64,000 bases of DNA, taken from positions 1 through 64,000 of the forward strand of contig NZ_JALJZZ010000002.1 in NCBI RefSeq assembly GCF_024171565.1, written 5' to 3'. Position 1 is the first letter of the stretch; each line of letters begins with the position of its first letter. This document shows positions 43,963 to 54,441 of the stretch, piece after piece. Source of the DNA: Okibacterium sp. HSC-33S16 (lineage in GTDB: Bacteria > Actinomycetota > Actinomycetes > Actinomycetales > Microbacteriaceae). The notes beneath the pieces were generated by a model that worked only from the letters and a program-made list of their open reading frames with translations, searched no databases and was not told the DNA's origin. A program made the position numbers and the translations under genes.

Positions 43963-43991
43963 TTGACGCGGGAACGGTGCGGGAGTAGCTT
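43963..43991 (+). promoter_or_regulatory. Promoter for the giant-gene pair
   Basis: TTGACG (43963-43968) and TAGCTT (43986-43991), separated by 17 bp, form a good promoter. Transcription would start near 43998, giving a leader of about 120 nt before ATG 44117. The leader has a small hairpin GAGGC-AACC-GCCTC (44027-44040). Confidence 0.6.
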
Positions 43992-44116
43992 GAGCGCGTC
44001 CGCGCCGGCGGATCGAGCCCGGCAGTGAGGCAACCGCCTCCGCCCGACCTCCTGTGTCACCCGTTGTCACGCTTCGCCAGCGTCTGTGCGCGCTTGTGTG
44101 CGCTCTAAGGGGCAGA

Positions 44117-47100
44117 ATGCCCGAGCTTTCTCCGCACGTTTCCCGTGCGCTCGACCGGGTGTTCGCACCGGTCGACTCCGTTGTCCGCGCCGACCATGTC
44201 TTTGAGCCGGCCGTGCCCGTGGGCACGTCGGGCGAATCGCTCCCGCCGGTTGCTCTGATCCGGTCGGGCGATCTGCTGTCGCTGACCTTCCGATTCGTGA
44301 ACCTGACGGTGAGCGAAACGGATGCCGGTGGCGTGCTCGCGAGGTCGCGAACGTCGGCGTCGGCGTATCTGGTCGCCCAATTTCCGGCGCAGCATCTTCT
44401 CGAGCGGGCATATTTCGAGTCGGCAGGAACGCTGCCGAAGGTGGGCGGCCCGCCGCTGCCAGCTGGGTCGGATCCGGTCACCCTGCCCGCAGAAGCAATT
44501 CTCTCGGCCTCCAGCCGACTGGTTTTTCGAGTCACTGACCAGCGCATCCCGTTCACCGAAGCCGGGCTCCTTGACGCGATGCGCACCCTGCCGCTCAGTG
44601 TCGCCCCACACGCCGACAGTTATCTCCTCCATCTGCCGTGGCTCGACCTCGCGGCCGATCTGAGGGCGCTAATGCCGACTGCGCGGGTCTCCGGTTCGGC
44701 GTCGCGGGGCGGCTCGCGGCGAGCGTCGGGTCGGGTTGTAGCGGAGCTCACCCGTGAGCCGGTCTTTGCCCGACGCACACTGACCGATCTCGCTGGGCAG
44801 GGACGACTGCGTCGCACGGCCAGCGAGATCGAGCTGCAGTTTGGCGCATTCAGTGCGGTCGCCGCCGTGGCCGATCGCCTGAGCGACATCGATGTGCTCA
44901 CTCCGCTTCCGCGGATCCCGCGCACGCCGCCCGTGCCGCGTGAGCCAACGAGTACCGAGACGGCGATCGAGTTGCCGTGGCGGTTGCAACTCAGTCCGCA
45001 CTCGCGCGGAGCGTTTGCCCACAGCACCGCTGAGGTCAGCCATGGCGGTCGCACCGAGCTGTGGCACACGCGCCTCGGCACCCGCACCGATGGCGCTACC
45101 CCGGGAATTGACGAGGTCGACCCGGCGACGAAGACCGTGCGCGCGGTGTGGACCCGTGACTTTGACCGGACCGGCGAGGCTTTTCCTGTGAAGGCCGCCG
45201 AGATCAGGCGCGACGACCCTGAGCTCAGCCCGTTTCGTGCGTCACTGTCGATTCGCGATCGCAAGTTCATCGTGCACCAGACGTCGAACTTCGCCCTGAC
45301 CGGAATGCCCGCCGGCTGGATGCCGATTCCCGCGACCGTGCACAACCTCATGCTCACCGCTGTGGGCGGTTGGCTCGACAGTGAAGCGAAGTTTCCGATC
45401 ACCGGAACCGCCATTTCACTGCAGGAGTGGAAGCACCGGGCCACCCTGGGGAGGGACCAGTACATCAAGGTTGTCTACAGTGGCGTGCTGTACCCGTTCG
45501 GACACCGCGCATCGCTGGTGAAGGTCACCGAGCGGCGAGTGGCGTCAGCGTCCCGTGCTGCGGTGCTGTTCCAGCGACTGTTCGTCGTGGTGCGGCAACC
45601 CGAACGGGTCTTCCGCACGTCGGGGAAACCGAAGCTCGACAACCGCATGCCGTTCAGCTGGGTGCGGATACTCACCGATTCGACACCTCCGCTCATGTCG
45701 CCTGGTGCACAAACGAACGGTGCACTGTTCGTGCCCCGGGTGGCGACCGGCGCGTCGGGGCCCACAGCGGGAGAAGCGTTCCGATTCCGGATGCGCGCGA
45801 GTGACGTTGACAACCACCTGATCGAGTTCGAGGGGCCACTCGTCTTTATTGAGGAGACCCGTCTCGATCCGTCTGTGCTCGACCAGAGCCTTCTGACGGC
45901 AGCCGCTGAGAACATCAGCTATCCGATGCGCGGCCAACGAATCGCGTTCGCGAAACCGAACGAGCCCGACGACACGACGCTCGCGACGAACTCGCTGGTC
46001 TTCGTCGCGGAGAAGGACCCGCAGAAGCCGCGGGAACCGAACTACATTCTCCCGGTGCTGAAGTCGGCGACCGCTGTCGTCCCGGCCATGAGCGCGTTCA
46101 CCGGCCAGACGGCACCCGTCGTGCTGTCATACCCAAACGCCTTCGTCGCGAACGGGTTCACCGCTGCCGCGAACTGGTCTGAGCTGTTTCTTCAGGTGGC
46201 GAATCCCGACGGTTCTCCGGTCACAGCGCCCGAGGTGATGGGGTTCGGCGCAAAGTCCGATCGTTCGGGAGGATTCCTGAGCCCCAGTGTCGGAATCACC
46301 GCCCTGGCACGACAGGTCGGCCCGGTCGGCGGTGCCCTGTCCGCACTCACCACGGGCAGCCGGGCATCCTTCCCCGTCGGTACGATGTTTCCTCTCGATG
46401 CGGCGAAGCTGTTCGGCATCCTGCCACTCGCTGAGCTGCTGCCGATTGGTGGGGCGCTGCCCCGCTTCGTCACCCAGTCGATCACCGAGGTGGTCGCGCT
46501 GCAGGAGAACATCGCCCGCCTCCAGGCGTTCGCGCTGCAGCAGGCCGCGGTTTTCTCGGGCCACTCTGTGGCACTGGGCCAGGCGGCGGCCGAGCTCGTC
46601 ACCGACGCGGGCCAGTTACCCGCAGCGCTCGTCGCGCTCTCGAAGCCGCCACACGACGATGCGGACGTTCAGGCACTCCTCACGAAGATCCACGGACATG
46701 TGGCCACACTGCTCGGCGGGTTCAGCGACCCAGCGAAGCCCCTGCCGTTCGCCCGCCCCACGATCGAGCAGATGGTGTCGGTGCTCGGAAGCGTCGAACA
46801 GGCCACCGCCGCAGCTGCCGCGACGGTTGGACTGTTTGTGCAGTTTTACCAGGGCTTTGCGCTTCCCGAGAAAATCAGCGCCCGGCTCGACTGGGAGATC
46901 GACCTGGTGCGCTGGCCGCCCCCGCCGGCGAGCGAGTCGGCTGCCATCTTTCTGCCGCGGGGCAGTGTGCGACTGGTTGCCGAGATCGAGGCACCGACCA
47001 ACGGTGGCGAGCCCCGGGCCCTGGTGTCGTGTTCGCTGCCGCCCTTCGAGATCAGGCTGATGGGTGACGATCTGCACTTCGTCAGCATCAACGTCGCCGT

Positions 47101-47932
47101 GATGGAGTTCTCGGTGCGTCCCGGCACCAAACCGGACGTCAACGTTGAACTGGAGAAGGACAAAGGAATCGTCTTCGCGGGGCCGCTCGCGTTTATCGAG
47201 ACGCTCAAGGAGATCATTCCGGCCGATGGATTCAGCGATCCTCCGTTTCTCGACGTCAGTACCGAAGGCATCCGTGCGGGATATGACCTTGCACTGCCCG
47301 ACGTTCCGATGGGCATCTTCGCGCTGTCGAACGTGCACCTGGGTGCGGAGCTGCTCGTGCCGTTCATCGGCGAGTCACTGGAGTTTCGGTTCTTCTTCGC
47401 TACCCGGGAGAACCCGTTCCGACTGCAGGTGGCATTCTTCGCCGGAGGGGGATTCTTCGGCATCACGATCTCGCCCCGGGGCATCAAGGTCATCGAGGCG
47501 TCGTTCGAGTTCGGCGCGGCGGTGGCCATGAGTTTCGTGGTTGCGTCTGGGTCGCTGTCGGTCATGGCCGGCATCTACTTCAAGCTCGAACTGCAGGGTT
47601 CGACCCAGGCCGTTCAGCTCACCGGATACTTCCGCGCTCGAGGCGAGGTCGATGTGCTTGGCCTCATCTCCGCCTGCATCGAGTTGTACCTCGAGCTCAG
47701 TTACTTCAACGATGGTGGGAACTCCAAGGCCATCGGTAAGGCATCGATCAGCATCGAGGTGTCGGTGTGCTTCCTCTCCTTCTCCGTCTCGGTGTCGTGT
47801 GAAAAGAAATTCGCGGGAACGGCGGGAGACCCAACGTTCGTCCAGATGATGGGGCCGTATGTGGACGATCGCGATCGGCCGCGTGAGCCGTGGGATGACT
47901 ATTGCGGTGCGTTTGCACCCGAGGTGGTGTGA
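44117..47932 (+). CDS. Giant hypothetical protein 1 (1271 aa)
   Basis: I do not recognise this protein. It has no signal peptide and no clear membrane helix. About the first 780 residues look beta-rich with proline-rich turns. A helical section (about residues 785-915: EVVALQENIARLQAFALQQAA onwards) follows. From about residue 930 the sequence turns to long alternating hydrophobic/polar strands, for example FFFATRENPFRLQVAFFAGGGFFGITI and VQLTGYFRARGEVDVLGLISACIELYLELSYF, ending with a few cysteines. That is the pattern of an extended beta sheet or barrel. AAGGGG lies before ATG 44117. The next giant gene starts one base after its stop. Confidence 0.85.
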   Translation: MPELSPHVSRALDRVFAPVDSVVRADHVFEPAVPVGTSGESLPPVALIRSGDLLSLTFRFVNLTVSETDAGGVLARSRTSASAYLVAQFPAQHLLERAYFESAGTLPKVGGPPLPAGSDPVTLPAEAILSASSRLVFRVTDQRIPFTEAGLLDAMRTLPLSVAPHADSYLLHLPWLDLAADLRALMPTARVSGSASRGGSRRASGRVVAELTREPVFARRTLTDLAGQGRLRRTASEIELQFGAFSAVAAVADRLSDIDVLTPLPRIPRTPPVPREPTSTETAIELPWRLQLSPHSRGAFAHSTAEVSHGGRTELWHTRLGTRTDGATPGIDEVDPATKTVRAVWTRDFDRTGEAFPVKAAEIRRDDPELSPFRASLSIRDRKFIVHQTSNFALTGMPAGWMPIPATVHNLMLTAVGGWLDSEAKFPITGTAISLQEWKHRATLGRDQYIKVVYSGVLYPFGHRASLVKVTERRVASASRAAVLFQRLFVVVRQPERVFRTSGKPKLDNRMPFSWVRILTDSTPPLMSPGAQTNGALFVPRVATGASGPTAGEAFRFRMRASDVDNHLIEFEGPLVFIEETRLDPSVLDQSLLTAAAENISYPMRGQRIAFAKPNEPDDTTLATNSLVFVAEKDPQKPREPNYILPVLKSATAVVPAMSAFTGQTAPVVLSYPNAFVANGFTAAANWSELFLQVANPDGSPVTAPEVMGFGAKSDRSGGFLSPSVGITALARQVGPVGGALSALTTGSRASFPVGTMFPLDAAKLFGILPLAELLPIGGALPRFVTQSITEVVALQENIARLQAFALQQAAVFSGHSVALGQAAAELVTDAGQLPAALVALSKPPHDDADVQALLTKIHGHVATLLGGFSDPAKPLPFARPTIEQMVSVLGSVEQATAAAAATVGLFVQFYQGFALPEKISARLDWEIDLVRWPPPPASESAAIFLPRGSVRLVAEIEAPTNGGEPRALVSCSLPPFEIRLMGDDLHFVSINVAVMEFSVRPGTKPDVNVELEKDKGIVFAGPLAFIETLKEIIPADGFSDPPFLDVSTEGIRAGYDLALPDVPMGIFALSNVHLGAELLVPFIGESLEFRFFFATRENPFRLQVAFFAGGGFFGITISPRGIKVIEASFEFGAAVAMSFVVASGSLSVMAGIYFKLELQGSTQAVQLTGYFRARGEVDVLGLISACIELYLELSYFNDGGNSKAIGKASISIEVSVCFLSFSVSVSCEKKFAGTAGDPTFVQMMGPYVDDRDRPREPWDDYCGAFAPEVV

Positions 47933-47933
47933 C

Positions 47934-50900
47934 GTGAACGAGGAAGCGATTTTTACGGTTATCCCGGCCGGCCGGGTGGCCGATGGGCTCAAGGTGACCG
48001 TGTTTGTCACCCCGCGGCTCGACGCGGCCGGCGGTCCGGTCGATGGCACTCCGCTTCGAGACTTTGAGGCCTTCGCGAACTGGCCGCGAACCACTGAACT
48101 CGCGAATTTTCGCTTCGAGATCAGCAACGTTGGTGTGGTGGAGGGCTTCGGACTGCCGAACCCCGTCGCGCCGGACCCTCAGCTCTGGGACCTGCTGTTC
48201 GGAGAGACCGTGGTGGGCGCCGCGGAGTTTCAGGACTTCTCGACCGCCGTCGTGAACTCTTTTCCGGTGAACGAGGTGGCGAACGCCCTGACCGATCTCT
48301 ACACTGCGGTTGCCGTGGCATCGCCCACCGAGTTCCCGCCGATGACCCGTGGGCCGCTCGCCCAAGCGGTGGCCGAACTCAGCGTCGGTGACCACACCGA
48401 GGAACCCGGTCGCGCCCCCTCCCGCCGCGAGATCGTCAGGGGGCTGCTTCGCGGGTTTCGGGCCAGGTCGGACCCGGCCGGCCGATTCGTCGACTTCGAG
48501 AACCCCACCGTTGTTCCGCTCAGCGAGCGGCGCAGGATTGCGCTCGCCGCGGCATCCGCTTTCTATGATCGATCGGCAGATCCCCTCGACCCGACCGAGG
48601 CGGCGACCGGTGCGCCGCCCCCCGTGCCGCCGGAGTTTCACAGTTTCGTTGCGCGGTGCGCGGACTACCCGGAACTGCTGCGTCACCTTGGGCTCGCCTT
48701 CGATGTGTTCGTGAAGGATGACCCGGGGTACCCCGAGGTGTCGCGGATTCGGCTGCTGCCTGATGACAACGAAGGGCCGCTCCGTAGGTTGCTGGACCCT
48801 GAGGCGGCGCGGCCGGAAACACTGTTTCACTACACCGAGCGGTTGTGGGTGCCGTACAGCCGTGAGCGGCGAGGGGATGTCCGTGACGGAAGCCTGTCGA
48901 TTGACAGTGACGACGTGTTCGATGTGCTCCAGATCGACCCGGACGGTTCGGCGCTGAAGCTGTCGAACCTGCTCGACACTGTGCGGCGGACAACGGCGGA
49001 ACTCGCCACAGTCGACAGGTCGATGACCGTCGATGCTGCGTCGCTTCCCGCGCTGCGCTCGGCGGGGATCGTGGTCGCGCGTCGCAACCGGGCCGAGCAG
49101 CTCGTGAACCAGTTCGATGCAGCCCGTGCCCACGAGGACGATCGGCTGGGTGCCACCGAGGCGCTACTCGAGGCGTCGGATGTGACCCGAGGGTTTCGCG
49201 TGGACATCCAGGACCAGACCGTCGGTCGGGAGTGGATGTCGCTGCACCGGCGTGAAGGAACGTATGAGGTGCGGGCGGATGGTGGGGTAGAGCCGCTTCC
49301 GGTGCAACCGCTGCCGGATGAGGGTTACCTCAAGGCGGCGAGCACGTCGAGCGCCGCACCCGGTACCACCGCCGACCAGTATCTCCACGAAGCGGTCGTC
49401 GGCTGGGACGGGTGGTCGCTCGCCGTGAAGCGCCCGGGCCGGCTGCAGACCGAGGTCGGGACGGTGGAACCGGAGGTGGCACCCGAGGTGGCAGCGACCG
49501 GGTTCGGGCTGGCCGCCGAGTTCCGGCCGCAACGCGGTTCGCTTCCCCGGTTGCGCTACGGGCGCTCCTACCGGGTGCGGGTGCGGGCCGTCGACCTGGC
49601 GGGTGGCTCGATTCCGGAGGACCAGCTGCTCGAGGAACATGAGCGGGACCTGCCGGACACGTACCAGCGCTGGGAACCGGTCCCCGCGCCAGCGACGGTG
49701 CCGCTCACGGAATACACCGAGGGCGAATCCCTGATGAGGATGGTCATCCGCTCGACCGATGGGGTGAGCGCCAGCGACTATGTGTCGCTGGATCGGGTAA
49801 CCGGTCTGGCCAATCACGCCCCGAACGGCATCTGGTATCGCGCCGACAACGCCAGGCACCTGGCCGCCCCGGCGACGAGTGTGCAACTCGCGGAGACCCA
49901 TGGCGCCTTTGACGCGGCACTGTCGGGGAACGCGGCGGCGGTGGCTGACCAGTTCGCCGTGGCCGCGCGAGAGTCGGGAAGCTACCTCCTGTTGGCCGGT
50001 GGTCGATTGGTCAGTCGGAGGGATGAGCCGACGACCCTGACCGGCCAGAAGAGCGACGTGCTCAAAAACGGCGAGTACATCGTCCATGACACTCCGCAAC
50101 TCGACCTGCCGTACCTGCCCGATCCGCTCTCGCGCGGAATTTCGTTCGCGACGCTGCCCGGCGACACCGACCTGCGGATACTCCGGTGGCCCGGCGATGA
50201 GGCCATCTGGTACGACCGCCTGCCGGTGCGGGTGCTGGCCGTCGAAGGAACGGGGCCGCCGAGCTTCGACGAAGCGACGCGAACCTTGACCGTCTCACTG
50301 GCGAAGGCCGAATTTCGGACGGTGCGCGTGGCATCCGCTCTGGATTCGGGTGATGAAAACCTGATGCGGATCTGGACGCTCATTGACCGTGACCAGAACC
50401 CGGCAACGACGGCCCAGCGAGCGGCTGTGCTGTCAGGGCGGCATTGGATGATCACGCCGTTCTCCGAACTGACCTTTGTGCACGCCGTGGAGAAGCCGCT
50501 CGAAAAGCCGGTGATTCTGGTCGGACCGGGTGGGCCCGCGAACAGTCGGGTGCACCGGCTGCCCGGTGACACCTTTGCGGCGCTGTTCGGGGCGGTCCGC
50601 ACTCACGCGGCCAGCACCGGACGACTCGACATCGACGCCGAGTGGACCGACAGGATCGACGACATTGCCCAGCCGACACCCGGGACGGAAGCTGTGTTTG
50701 CGCACGTCACCGGGTTCTCGCTCGAGCGCGATGAGGTGGACTGCCTGATCGCTGCAACGGAGGGTCCGGCCGGTGGGCCGTTCGGGCCACGACACGAGGT
50801 GCGGCAGGAATTCGGCGACACCAAGCACCGGTACGTGTCGTATCGGGCGACGGCGACGACGCGTTTTCGGGAGTACTTTCCGCCAGAGATCACCAACGAT

Positions 50901-52235
50901 CCCGACCTCGTCACGACGGAGGGCGAGCCGCTGAGGCTGAACATTCCGTCGAGCCGGCGCCCCGATCCGCCGGACGTGAAGTACATCATTCCGACATGGG
51001 AATGGACAACCGATGACCTCGGCGGCGAGGGATTCGGTGTGCGCCGGGTGCGCACGGGCGGTGGACTTCGCGTCTACCTCGGCCGGCCCTGGTACTCGAG
51101 TGGTGAGGAGGAGATCCTCGGGGTGGTGCTGCGGATCCAGCCGTGGCTGACCTGGCACGCTGACGTGGAGCGCGGTGTCGTTGGCAGCATCGATGCCCAG
51201 GCGCTGAGCGATACCTGGGCAGCGGGCGTGCTCGAGCGCGATGGTGTGTCGGTGTCAGGGCGGAGCTCGGCGTCTGCTCAATTGCTCGAGTCGCTGACCG
51301 AACGGGTTCGGGCTGACGAGGCCCCGGTGCGGGCGCGCACCGACGAGGAACGTGCGCTTCTGGGTACACGCTCAGCGCTTGCCGCACTTCGGTCGTCCGA
51401 CCCGGTGGTGAACCTCGAAACAGTCGTCGACCACTTCCCGCTGTTCGGGGAAACCGGTGCCGACGGCTTGCCGTTCACCAGCGTCTGGGGAACGGACCCC
51501 GTCTACATTTCTGAGCCCGTGGCATCCGGACCGTTAATTTCTCAGTTCCCGTTGCGAACGAGTGTGGGGCACGGGGTGTTGCTTTCTGAGGTGGGGGAAC
51601 GGGTGACCGTCGTGGGGCACGCGCCCGAGTACGACCCGGACCGGCAGTTATGGTTCTGCGACGTGCAGGTCGATGCGGGTGATGCGTACACTCCGCTGGT
51701 TCAGCTGATGCTGGGGCGGTATCAACCTCATTCCGTGGGTGACGAGCACCTGTCGAAGGTGGTGAAGGCGGACTTCGTGCAGGTGTTGCCGCGTCGGGAG
51801 GCGACGTTTGTCGAGTCGGTCGATCGGACCGCGATCGTCGTGACGCTGAGCGGAGCCGTCGGCATTCCTCACCACGCACAAACCCTGCCGAACCTCGCCA
51901 GCAAGGTCGAGGCGTCGCGGCGGGTCGAGGCGTGGGTCGAGAAGTTGCCCGCGGATGCGACGAGCGACCTGGCGTGGGAAGAGGTGGGACGGCGGGTTAC
52001 CCTGCCCGTCGTTTCCGGTCTCCGGTTCCTGCGCCGAGGCACCTACGACGAGGTTGACTGGGCTGGCGCGGTGCCCGTGCCGAGTCGACAGGACGCGCCG
52101 GTGGGCGAACGGTGGCGGGTGCGCATCGCCGAGTATGAGCTGCACGTTTCGGATCGAGAGCCGACCGGGCACATCGCTCCATTCCGGATGCGGGACGCCC
52201 GGCTTATCTACAGCGACACGGTCGACCTGCCCTGA
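47934..52235 (+). CDS. Giant hypothetical protein 2 (1433 aa)
   Basis: I do not recognise this protein either. It has no signal peptide and no membrane helix, and seems to be a string of beta-sandwich-like domains with Trp/Tyr/Pro-rich strands. Passages that may serve for family searches are RYGRSYRVRVRAVDLAGGS (about residue 545), EGESLMRMVIRSTDG (about 596), LDLPYLPDPLSRG and STGRLDIDAEWTD. Such phrases recall large structural or secreted proteins of actinobacteria and myxobacteria, but I cannot give a function. GTG 47934 is chosen for its 1-base gap after the preceding gene, indicating translational coupling. Confidence 0.85.
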   Translation: MNEEAIFTVIPAGRVADGLKVTVFVTPRLDAAGGPVDGTPLRDFEAFANWPRTTELANFRFEISNVGVVEGFGLPNPVAPDPQLWDLLFGETVVGAAEFQDFSTAVVNSFPVNEVANALTDLYTAVAVASPTEFPPMTRGPLAQAVAELSVGDHTEEPGRAPSRREIVRGLLRGFRARSDPAGRFVDFENPTVVPLSERRRIALAAASAFYDRSADPLDPTEAATGAPPPVPPEFHSFVARCADYPELLRHLGLAFDVFVKDDPGYPEVSRIRLLPDDNEGPLRRLLDPEAARPETLFHYTERLWVPYSRERRGDVRDGSLSIDSDDVFDVLQIDPDGSALKLSNLLDTVRRTTAELATVDRSMTVDAASLPALRSAGIVVARRNRAEQLVNQFDAARAHEDDRLGATEALLEASDVTRGFRVDIQDQTVGREWMSLHRREGTYEVRADGGVEPLPVQPLPDEGYLKAASTSSAAPGTTADQYLHEAVVGWDGWSLAVKRPGRLQTEVGTVEPEVAPEVAATGFGLAAEFRPQRGSLPRLRYGRSYRVRVRAVDLAGGSIPEDQLLEEHERDLPDTYQRWEPVPAPATVPLTEYTEGESLMRMVIRSTDGVSASDYVSLDRVTGLANHAPNGIWYRADNARHLAAPATSVQLAETHGAFDAALSGNAAAVADQFAVAARESGSYLLLAGGRLVSRRDEPTTLTGQKSDVLKNGEYIVHDTPQLDLPYLPDPLSRGISFATLPGDTDLRILRWPGDEAIWYDRLPVRVLAVEGTGPPSFDEATRTLTVSLAKAEFRTVRVASALDSGDENLMRIWTLIDRDQNPATTAQRAAVLSGRHWMITPFSELTFVHAVEKPLEKPVILVGPGGPANSRVHRLPGDTFAALFGAVRTHAASTGRLDIDAEWTDRIDDIAQPTPGTEAVFAHVTGFSLERDEVDCLIAATEGPAGGPFGPRHEVRQEFGDTKHRYVSYRATATTRFREYFPPEITNDPDLVTTEGEPLRLNIPSSRRPDPPDVKYIIPTWEWTTDDLGGEGFGVRRVRTGGGLRVYLGRPWYSSGEEEILGVVLRIQPWLTWHADVERGVVGSIDAQALSDTWAAGVLERDGVSVSGRSSASAQLLESLTERVRADEAPVRARTDEERALLGTRSALAALRSSDPVVNLETVVDHFPLFGETGADGLPFTSVWGTDPVYISEPVASGPLISQFPLRTSVGHGVLLSEVGERVTVVGHAPEYDPDRQLWFCDVQVDAGDAYTPLVQLMLGRYQPHSVGDEHLSKVVKADFVQVLPRREATFVESVDRTAIVVTLSGAVGIPHHAQTLPNLASKVEASRRVEAWVEKLPADATSDLAWEEVGRRVTLPVVSGLRFLRRGTYDEVDWAGAVPVPSRQDAPVGERWRVRIAEYELHVSDREPTGHIAPFRMRDARLIYSDTVDLP

Positions 52236-52244
52236 GCTTGTTCC

Positions 52245-53564
52245 TCAGCAGCAGGTGCCCGATTGCGCCGGTGTGCTCGTTGAACAGACGCCGGTTTCGG
52301 GCAGGATGAGCTCAACCCGCCGTGCCGCGGAGAAGTTGCCGGCAAGCTCGTCGGCAATGGACCTGACCTGTTCGTAGCCGGTGAGCAGCAGGAAGGTCGG
52401 TGCGCGCCCGTAGCTCTTCATTCCGGCGACGTAGAAATTCGGCTCCGGGTGACTGAGTTCAACCACGCCGTGCGGCGGCACGCTGCCGCAGCTGTGCAGG
52501 TTGGGGTCGATGAGCGGCGCCAGCGCCCGCGGCGCCTCGACGACCTCGTCGAGCGCCAGGCGGATCTCCCGCAACATGTCGAGATCCGGGCGGAACCCGG
52601 TGGCATTCACAACCCGGTCGACCGTGATTGTGGTCGGCTTCCCGCCCCGGCGCCCGCGCACCTCAACACGCCCAGCGGGGTGGGGAACCAGGTCGTCAAT
52701 CTCACAGGCGTCGATGAGTGACACCTCGCCGGAGCGCACCAGATCATGCGTCGAGGTGCCCAGGGCGCCGCGAGCGTCGAGCTCGTCGTCGCCTGAGCCG
52801 AAGACACGCACCGGACTGGAGTTGCGAATAGCCCAGCTGATCGTCGTGCCCGGTTCCTCGCGGGCCAGAGCCGCGAGAGCGAGAAGTGTGTGTGCGGCGG
52901 AGTGTCCGGCGCCAACGACGAGCGTGTGCTGCCCGGCGAAGCGTGCGCGGTCGTGCCCTTGCACGTCGGGCAGCGCGGGGCAGATCGTGTCGCCAAGCAC
53001 GTCCGCGTGCTGCGGAGCGAGCCCGTTCGCGATCACGCTGTTCGGGGTCGAGTAGGTGCCCGAGGTGTCGATAACAGCGCGCGCGAGCTGTTCCTGTGGA
53101 CCAGCGTCGGTATCAGTCCGTACGATGAACGGTGTCGATGCGCGCCCGGTCGACCGCGTGCGGTCCATTCCTTGTCGACTGACCGCGGTAACGATCGATC
53201 GGTAACGGATGCGACCGGCCAGCGGTTCGGTCGCCGCGAGTGGAGCCAGGTAACGGTCGACGAACTCGAGTCCGGTTGGCAAACCTCGAGCGGGTGGTGC
53301 GTCCCATCCTGTCGGATCGAGCAAGCGGGCAGCTGCATCGTCGACAACGAACTCCCACGGCGAGAACAGCCGAATGTGGCCCCACTGTCGAATGGCACTG
53401 CCGGCACGATCGCCTGACTCGAAAACGAGAACATCAATGCCGCGCTCGAGGAGGTGGGCTGCAGCGGCGAGTCCAACCGGACCCGCGCCAATCACGACAA
53501 CGGGCAGGTGCTCGAGGTTCTTAGAGCGCGGAGCGGCACGCAGTGGAAGCTCGGCGAGGGGCAC
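52245..53564 (-). CDS. FAD/NAD(P)-dependent oxidoreductase of the arsenic locus, Cys-rich tail (ArsO-like)
   Basis: 439-aa flavoprotein with two dinucleotide-binding motifs (VVIGAGPVGLAAAAHLLERG and TLVVGAGHSAAHTLLAL) and a DATGF-type region VVNATGFRPD, like class B monooxygenases and the ArsO-type proteins found with arsR/arsC. The last residues read GVCSTSTPAQSGTCC, so three cysteines crowd the C-terminus. These could bind trivalent arsenic or hold a disulfide. It begins 4 bp after the arsC stop and is co-transcribed with it. Confidence 0.85.
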   Translation of the reverse strand: MPLAELPLRAAPRSKNLEHLPVVVIGAGPVGLAAAAHLLERGIDVLVFESGDRAGSAIRQWGHIRLFSPWEFVVDDAAARLLDPTGWDAPPARGLPTGLEFVDRYLAPLAATEPLAGRIRYRSIVTAVSRQGMDRTRSTGRASTPFIVRTDTDAGPQEQLARAVIDTSGTYSTPNSVIANGLAPQHADVLGDTICPALPDVQGHDRARFAGQHTLVVGAGHSAAHTLLALAALAREEPGTTISWAIRNSSPVRVFGSGDDELDARGALGTSTHDLVRSGEVSLIDACEIDDLVPHPAGRVEVRGRRGGKPTTITVDRVVNATGFRPDLDMLREIRLALDEVVEAPRALAPLIDPNLHSCGSVPPHGVVELSHPEPNFYVAGMKSYGRAPTFLLLTGYEQVRSIADELAGNFSAARRVELILPETGVCSTSTPAQSGTCC

Positions 53565-53568
53565 GGGG

Positions 53569-53979
53569 TTACCTCCCGGCCATGGTCAGGTCGGCCACCA
53601 ACGCCTCGACCCGGCGCTTGATCTCGTCCCGGATCGGTCGCACATCCTCAATGCCTTTGCCAGCCGGGTCCGGGAGATCCCAATCCTCGTAACGCTTGCC
53701 CGGAAAGACCGGGCAGACGTCACCGCAGCCCATTGTGATGACGACATCGGACTGCTGAACCTGCTCAGTCGTCATCAGTTGGGGAACGGCCCGGGAGATG
53801 TCAATGCCCTCCTCGGCCATGGCCGCAACGGCCGTCGGGTTGACAGCGTTGCCCGGTTCAGAGCCACCGGAACGCACCGTGACAGTTTCGCCGGAGAGCG
53901 CCGTCAGGTAGCCGGCTGCCATTTGGGATCGGCCCGCGTTGTGCACACAGACGAACAGCACTGTCGGGTTGTCGGTCAT
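53569..53979 (-). CDS. arsC: Arsenate reductase ArsC, LMW phosphatase type
   Basis: 136-aa low-molecular-weight phosphatase-fold arsenate reductase. The P-loop CVHNAGRS (C-X5-R-S) sits at residues 11-18, and the general acid region is DWDLPDPAGKG. Further cysteines lie in GCGDVCP. It reduces arsenate to arsenite, using thioredoxin or mycothiol/mycoredoxin; the actinobacterial setting favours mycothiol. Divergent from arsR. Confidence 0.93.
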   Translation of the reverse strand: MTDNPTVLFVCVHNAGRSQMAAGYLTALSGETVTVRSGGSEPGNAVNPTAVAAMAEEGIDISRAVPQLMTTEQVQQSDVVITMGCGDVCPVFPGKRYEDWDLPDPAGKGIEDVRPIRDEIKRRVEALVADLTMAGR

Positions 53980-54019: not shown

Positions 54020-54072
54020 ATCGATGAGTGTCGATATCTACTGTGGGGTACTATATCGATGAATGTCAATAT
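54020..54072. promoter_or_regulatory. Paired ArsR operators between arsC and arsR
   Basis: ATCGA-TGAGTG-TCGAT (54020-54035) is a perfect 5-bp inverted repeat with 6-bp spacer, and ATCGA-TGAATG-TCAAT (54055-54070) is a slightly imperfect copy, their starts 35 bp apart. Both are followed by AT. They lie in the only gap between the divergent arsC and arsR genes. On the minus strand TTGACA (54069-54064) is a consensus -35 for the arsC direction. Confidence 0.75.
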
Positions 54073-54090
54073 AAGCAGAGGATGGTTCGC

Positions 54091-54441
54091 ATGGCACTCG
54101 TCACAACACTCCCGCTGACGGACGTGACCGAGTGCTGCGCGCCCTTGACGCGCGAAACCCTGTCCGCGCACAACGCGGAGAAGCTCGCCAAAACGCTCAA
54201 GGCCCTCGCTGATCCGGCACGATTGCGCCTGGTGTCGATGGTCGCGGCCCACGACGACGCTGAGGCGTGCGTGTGTGATCTCACCGAACCACTCGGACTC
54301 GGCCAGCCCACCGTCTCGCACCACCTCAAGGTTCTCGTCGACGCCGGCATCCTCACCCGGGAGAAGCGCGGAACCTGGGCCTACTACCGCCTCGTCCCCG
54401 GGGCGCTGGATTCGCTCGCGAGCCTCCTCGTCACCGCGTAG
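54091..54441 (+). CDS. arsR: ArsR/SmtB family metalloregulator
   Basis: 116-aa winged-helix repressor. The metal-binding motif is ACVCDLTEPLGL (ELCVCDL type), with two further cysteines in TECCAPL near the N-terminus. The recognition helix is QPTVSHHLKVLVDAGILTREKRG. It is released from DNA by As(III)/Sb(III). The ATG at 54091 is chosen since AGAGGA lies 8 bp before it; the frame's earlier ATG codons lie inside the operators. Confidence 0.93.
   Translation: MALVTTLPLTDVTECCAPLTRETLSAHNAEKLAKTLKALADPARLRLVSMVAAHDDAEACVCDLTEPLGLGQPTVSHHLKVLVDAGILTREKRGTWAYYRLVPGALDSLASLLVTA

Follow-up and report, generated by a model that had tools for sequence, protein, structure and literature searches.

Two strictly paired, horizontally acquired giant genes in Okibacterium: candidate subunits of a mobile Tat hitchhiker complex

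Hitchhiker export, in which a subunit without a signal of its own crosses the membrane with a signal-bearing partner, is an established mechanism of the twin-arginine translocation (Tat) system, and the Escherichia coli complex PaoABC serves here as its reference (PMC4273604). We used a computational approach to characterize two giant genes, which we call A and B, in the first 64,000 nucleotides of contig NZ_JALJZZ010000002.1 of Okibacterium sp. HSC-33S16 (hereafter the window), together with their relatives in other genomes. The A/B families resemble such hitchhiker complexes in that a Tat signal is found on one subunit (A, in 13 of 39 proteins) and none on its partner, and in that B at one locus, G538, carries CWB2 repeats, which can serve only if the protein arrives at the wall. 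Unlike PaoABC, A and B bear no cofactor-enzyme motif, are far larger, and show no homology to it, and the clade to which the window belongs is without a Tat signal. The features of the locus are collected in Table 1.

Table 1. Features of the A/B locus, in positions of the window
Feature	Position	Strand	Remarks
Gene A	44118..47932	+	1271 aa, ATG start
Gene B	47934..52235	+	1433 aa, GTG start, no signal peptide
Signature of A	45449..45535	+	best conserved stretch of the A core (invariant or nearly invariant columns)
Helical section of A	46457..46852	+	residues 802-933, counted from GTG 44054
C-terminal beta meander of A	46871..47812	+	residues 940-1253, alternating hydropathy
Signature of B	51063..51131	+	GLRVYL.RPW.SSG..E.LGVVL
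Block missing at this site in congener L123	43938..54449		10.5 kb here; flanks 211 bp apart in L123
FAD-dependent oxidoreductase	52245-53564	-	within the inserted block
ArsC-like	53569-53979	-	within the inserted block
ArsR-like	54028-54441	+	within the inserted block

The two large open reading frames reported in the earlier note are both present, occupying 8,117 bases (12.7% of the window), with a single base between A's TGA (47930-47932) and the GTG of B. An AGGGG lies about 5 bases 5' of A's ATG, an alternative start at GTG 44054 would give a protein of 1292 aa, and B is preceded by an AGGTGG inside A, its GTG start agreeing with the starts in relatives. A search for a consensus sigma-70 promoter upstream of the pair found none. 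Full-length conservation at 25-62% identity in many genomes excludes chance reading frames. As had been read from the letters alone, neither a signal peptide nor a transmembrane helix is evident in the window's A or B, the top 19-residue hydropathy in A (1.84) falling within predicted beta strands.

The relatives compared here come from genomes of the window's own order, class, and phylum, from a Cryobacterium contig (about 60% identity), from plasmids of Cupriavidus, Diaphorobacter, Rhizobium, Sinorhizobium, Agrobacterium, Ruegeria, and Streptomyces, and from two IMG/VR contigs (L037 and L038), besides which the IMG/VR scans gave no relatives. In all 35 relatives measured with the A and B profiles, B follows A on the same strand with an absolute gap of at most 73 bp; B lies directly 3' of each intact A examined, except that in the very distant L026 this position is taken by a large gene that the profile does not match. 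The pairwise distances of A and of B correlate over 36 loci (Mantel r = 0.90, with 0 of 2,000 permutations as high). Occurrence of B without A was rejected, G780 retaining decayed fragments of A as well as B and G836 being a false match. A and B are thus a real, ancient, strictly paired module, which bears out the pairing proposed before. The further proposal that both proteins probably form one large complex is supported, at the level of sequence comparison, by the pairing and the correlated divergence, the main argument being that the two genes have been inherited and lost jointly over a long divergence.

Some loci carry additional features in B or behind it. The B gene of an Agrobacterium locus (L021, 20400-25938) is split into two overlapping ORFs of about 1260 and 590 aa, which may work as two chains or be broken. 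Two more genes, of 773 and 588 aa and without a Pfam match, lie within a few bases 3' of B in L030 (1672-5761), apparently in the same operon. Two streptomycete-type loci (L063, 12782-14497; L096, 6580-7617) share a small-protein family 3' of B, with the motif QMFPQ..PL.L....G.LVPF.VP...MFLR..A and with two copies in L063, and related small proteins with the motif H-F-W-x-V-x-A-R-x-A-F-x-C-D-G-Q-P adjoin two distant Tat-type pairs (L020, 10256-10468; L022, 26696-27157). The B proteins of L024 and L097, also streptomycete-type, terminate in (DGH)n repeats that may bind metal.

Searches of Pfam, NCBIfam, PHROGs, PADLOC, and PDB sequences gave no match for the window's A or B, so that the families remain as unfamiliar as the earlier note had found them; the conserved core of every member scanned likewise has no Pfam or NCBIfam match, and our literature search found nothing on the pair. 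Comparison of the profiles (hhalign) showed A and B to be unrelated to each other and free of internal repeats. From its N to its C terminus, A consists of a beta region, a conserved core marked by the signature GRD..V.VVY.G.L.PFGHRA.LV.VTER, a helical section whose length varies, and a beta meander that ends in the conserved W..YC.AFA. In some relatives the helical section is missing or, as in some Streptomyces forms, nearly so, whereas the 2300-3300-aa forms of alphaproteobacterial plasmids have one that is longer by some 600 aa. The conserved blocks of B include HEFGDTKHR...TTRFREYFPP and the block given in Table 1. AlphaFold2 (AF2) models built from four sequences (A residues 93-1292, B residues 259-1458) have a low mean confidence, with a pLDDT of 35 for A and 31 for B. 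At that low confidence, the secondary structure of A consists of helices at the section listed in Table 1 and then strands up to residue 1253, six of the strands after the helices being 12-17 residues long, and the hydropathy of the C-terminal part alternates with a period of two (lag-1 -0.20, lag-2 +0.23, about 4 s.d.). Both lines of evidence agree with the description of A as a helical section followed by long alternating strands. The model of B gave no confirmation of the chain of beta-sandwich domains proposed for that protein in the earlier note. With a pLDDT of 35 and 31, the models are too poor to be usable for fold comparison, and a known fold with a diverged sequence may underlie A and B.

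Several described systems were compared with the pair and set aside. The name apolipoprotein A1/A4/E (PF01442), given to the protein of the distant L026, does not reflect homology, its score being 33.6 bits against a curated cut-off of 90; the same profile weakly matches the helical section of A (4e-8, the best in another member being 5e-5) in one or two members only, a likeness of amphipathic helices in general. A match to cholesterol-dependent cytolysins (pneumolysin) with profile A1 (E 0.003 over about 140 residues) was treated as chance; it covers only part of a domain, designed coiled coils rank as high in the same search, and profiles A5 and A6 gave none. A phage-tail or contractile injection machine is not supported by sequence, as the pair has no PHROGs match, and a phage origin was rejected, no phage record carrying A or B. 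One metagenomic viral contig (L037, 165-3846) has genes for an HK97-type terminase, capsid, and head protease beside its A-B pair, which we read as mobile cargo. No functional neighbor is conserved across lineages in the neighborhood survey of the homologues.

The pair is patchily distributed. None of the five other species of the genus has it, and it is lacking in 248 of the 250 genomes sampled from the family; it occurs in 9 of 297 genomes of the order sample, in 11 of 396 of the phylum sample, and, counted by B, in up to 15 of 395 of the class sample, two of these being weak or decayed matches. Overall, 1-4% of the sampled genomes carry it, and it is plasmid-borne in two phyla. In the window it sits in a block that is missing at this site in congener L123 (Table 1), flanked by a DnaJ-NERD gene, 85-90% identical in all congeners, and by a second NERD gene. 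The codon-usage deviation relative to sampling noise, computed within the window only, is 2.34 for A and 1.68 for B versus 0.89-1.32 for the other genes, and the GC3 of A is 0.67 versus mostly 0.75-0.84 for the other genes of the window; by the same within-window measure of codon usage, the FAD, ArsC, and ArsR genes of the block look native. The empty site in L123, the absence from the five other species, and the atypical codon usage establish that the pair was horizontally acquired in this genome, and they contradict the earlier view that its chromosome-like composition spoke against a recent arrival. No repeats were found within either of the two end regions of the block. The gap between the two NERD genes resembles an integration hotspot: it is empty in L123, spans 10.5 kb here, and in L126 contains roughly 3 kb of different DNA, a LacI-type regulator among it. 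On a larger scale, one clade of the A tree brings together, with strong support, Cupriavidus, Rhizobium WYJ-E13, Diaphorobacter, and actinobacterial members, the window among them, a mixture that points to transfer between phyla.

The Tat signals of A, called from motif and hydropathy rather than by a trained predictor, are of the classical type, for example, S/T-RR-x-F/L-L followed by a hydrophobic stretch at the start of the protein. Examples are SRRLFLRYSGAAGIAAAAA (Streptomyces), TRRDFLGAAAAAPIMTATA (S. meliloti), SRRTFLGSSLAITAAPALA (Ruegeria), and TRRTFLGGLAVVAAVVATTSPAQA (G882). None of the 39 B proteins has an N-terminal signal (A versus B, Fisher p = 7e-5, the loci not being fully independent), and two Tat pattern matches in B fall inside its core. 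At G521 the signal is encoded by a separate ORF just upstream of A, and in L020 (S. meliloti LMB1) a 55-aa TatA/E gene (PF02416, 2.4e-9) lies directly 3' of B. In keeping with export, secreted proteins are encoded behind some Tat-type pairs: an astacin protease in L028, an M35 peptidase in L022, and a Tat-signal protein in L038.

Wall-binding modules are found on B. At G538, B ends in three CWB2 repeats and lacks a signal peptide, and its A has a Tat signal; among the B proteins scanned, this one only shares CWB2 with clostridial-type surface proteins, from which it differs in that the repeats are a lineage-specific add-on. This actinobacterium (L060) has at least 163 matches to CWB2, an unusual expansion, and B is one of the proteins concerned. 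PG_binding_1 scores above its curated cut-off in the B proteins of L024 (S. nigrescens), G1008, and G935, being inserted within B in the first two. In G935 (L098, 1-7839), a C-terminal extension of about 800 aa consists of PG_binding_1 followed by a phospholipase-D (PLD) domain (PLDc_2), whose second HKD motif is intact and whose first has H for D. Together, the Tat signals on A and the wall-binding modules on B, both in relatives, uphold the link to secretion or the cell surface that had been proposed for the pair. The CWB2 or PG-binding modules on these four B proteins suggest that B ends up outside the cytoplasm. Judged from these sequences, Tat export of A and a wall anchor on B appear to coincide clearly only in G538.

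From this evidence we infer, with a probability of about 0.5, that A and B are obligate subunits of one mobile complex that is exported by Tat in many lineages, with B as the hitchhiker, and that functions at the envelope. A and B would be made side by side from their coupled reading frames and would fold and assemble in the cytoplasm, and the finished complex would then cross the membrane through the Tat translocase in many lineages, A supplying the twin-arginine signal and the signal-less B riding along. The exported complex would work at the cell envelope, for which B in some lineages is furnished with a phospholipase D or with CWB2 or PG-binding repeats that would anchor it to the wall. 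For the clade of the window, the complex might stay inside, leave by lysis, or take another route. The hitchhiker mechanism itself is moderately supported; a signal-less B with wall-binding repeats beside a Tat-tagged obligate A is what it predicts. Several points speak against it: the window's clade has no Tat signal, a wall-binding module is lacking in the window's B, the B proteins with PG_binding_1 (L024, G1008, and G935) have partner A proteins without a detected Tat signal, and the complex, at some 300 kDa or more and over 500 kDa in the longest plasmid forms, would be an unusually large Tat cargo. A more far-reaching version, somewhat short of even odds and offered tentatively, is that the pair represents a new class of mobile two-subunit giant complex, exported ready-folded by Tat and then displayed or released, with the C terminus of B as a slot for anchors or enzymes.

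One alternative is that, in the window's clade, A and B form a cytoplasmic complex, or one released by lysis only, and that export is a derived habit elsewhere. No Tat or Sec signal was found in the window's A or in any other member of its 16-member clade (99% SH-aLRT), and a search for wall-binding modules in the B proteins of the window and its clade found no anchor; the rest of the architecture is full length without the signal. Yet pairs of the Tat type are spread over both main halves of the unrooted A tree, and at least four changes are required, so that an ancestor with export is no less likely. The window's clade may have lost the signal or never had one, a loss being plausible given this distribution, and we consider the cytoplasmic alternative rather unlikely.

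The enzymes on and around B bear on a further alternative, in which the pair carries interchangeable enzymes that degrade lipids or proteins and are directed against other cells, like a modular toxin. Besides the PLD domain fused to B in G935, there are patatin genes near L016 and L031, a zinc phospholipase C and an M35 peptidase near the Tat-type pair of L022, and, in the Tat-type locus L028, an astacin protease whose start overlaps the stop of B; the spread on conjugative plasmids would also suit such a role. However, most loci, including the window, have no such neighbor, no patatin was found beside L032, although the A proteins of L032 and L031 are 93% identical, the occurrence of two patatins among about 40 neighborhoods may be chance, and no immunity gene was recognized. 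The phospholipase and protease neighbors are lineage-specific, and the PLD fusion alone can be counted firmly as belonging to the system, in a single lineage. We consider the carrier role improbable.

Equally concerned with lipids is the quite improbable alternative that A is a lipid-binding or lipid-transfer protein with an amphipathic beta groove and B its scaffold. The C-terminal beta meander of A, in which hydropathy alternates and several strands reach 12-17 residues, is of a kind that would fit, but no member scanned has a Pfam match to AsmA, TamB, LptA, or the like, and the AF2 model of A does not permit a fold comparison. The earlier suggestion of a toxin complex or a lipid-handling device may yet hold, its only direct hint being the PLD domain fused to one B; neither TcA, TcB, or Rhs-type domains of the Tc/ABC toxins (Pfam and NCBIfam, in A or B) nor AsmA/TamB families were found. 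Finally, a role as anti-phage accessory cargo of defense islands is very improbable: although the distribution is patchy and some pairs lie near dpdE/F, N6-methylase, WYL, nuclease, HsdR-like, and SIR2 genes, or in L035, by our reading of the sequence, near DUF262-like and C5-methyltransferase genes, PADLOC gave no match, the majority of the neighborhoods are not defense islands, variable sites gather unrelated cargo, and Tat export and wall anchors would be odd for a defense protein.

A and B are new at the level of protein families and of module architecture, and no known kind of system could be named for them. They make up two families of 900-3300 residues that are common to Actinomycetota and Pseudomonadota, travel on conjugative plasmids, and have no entry in the main family libraries. 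Should the hitchhiker reading be right, A/B would rank with the largest Tat cargoes and would offer a direct test of the size limit for folded complexes. Pairs that have a Tat signal and pairs that lack it, like B proteins that have a wall anchor and those that do not, form a ready-made comparative series.
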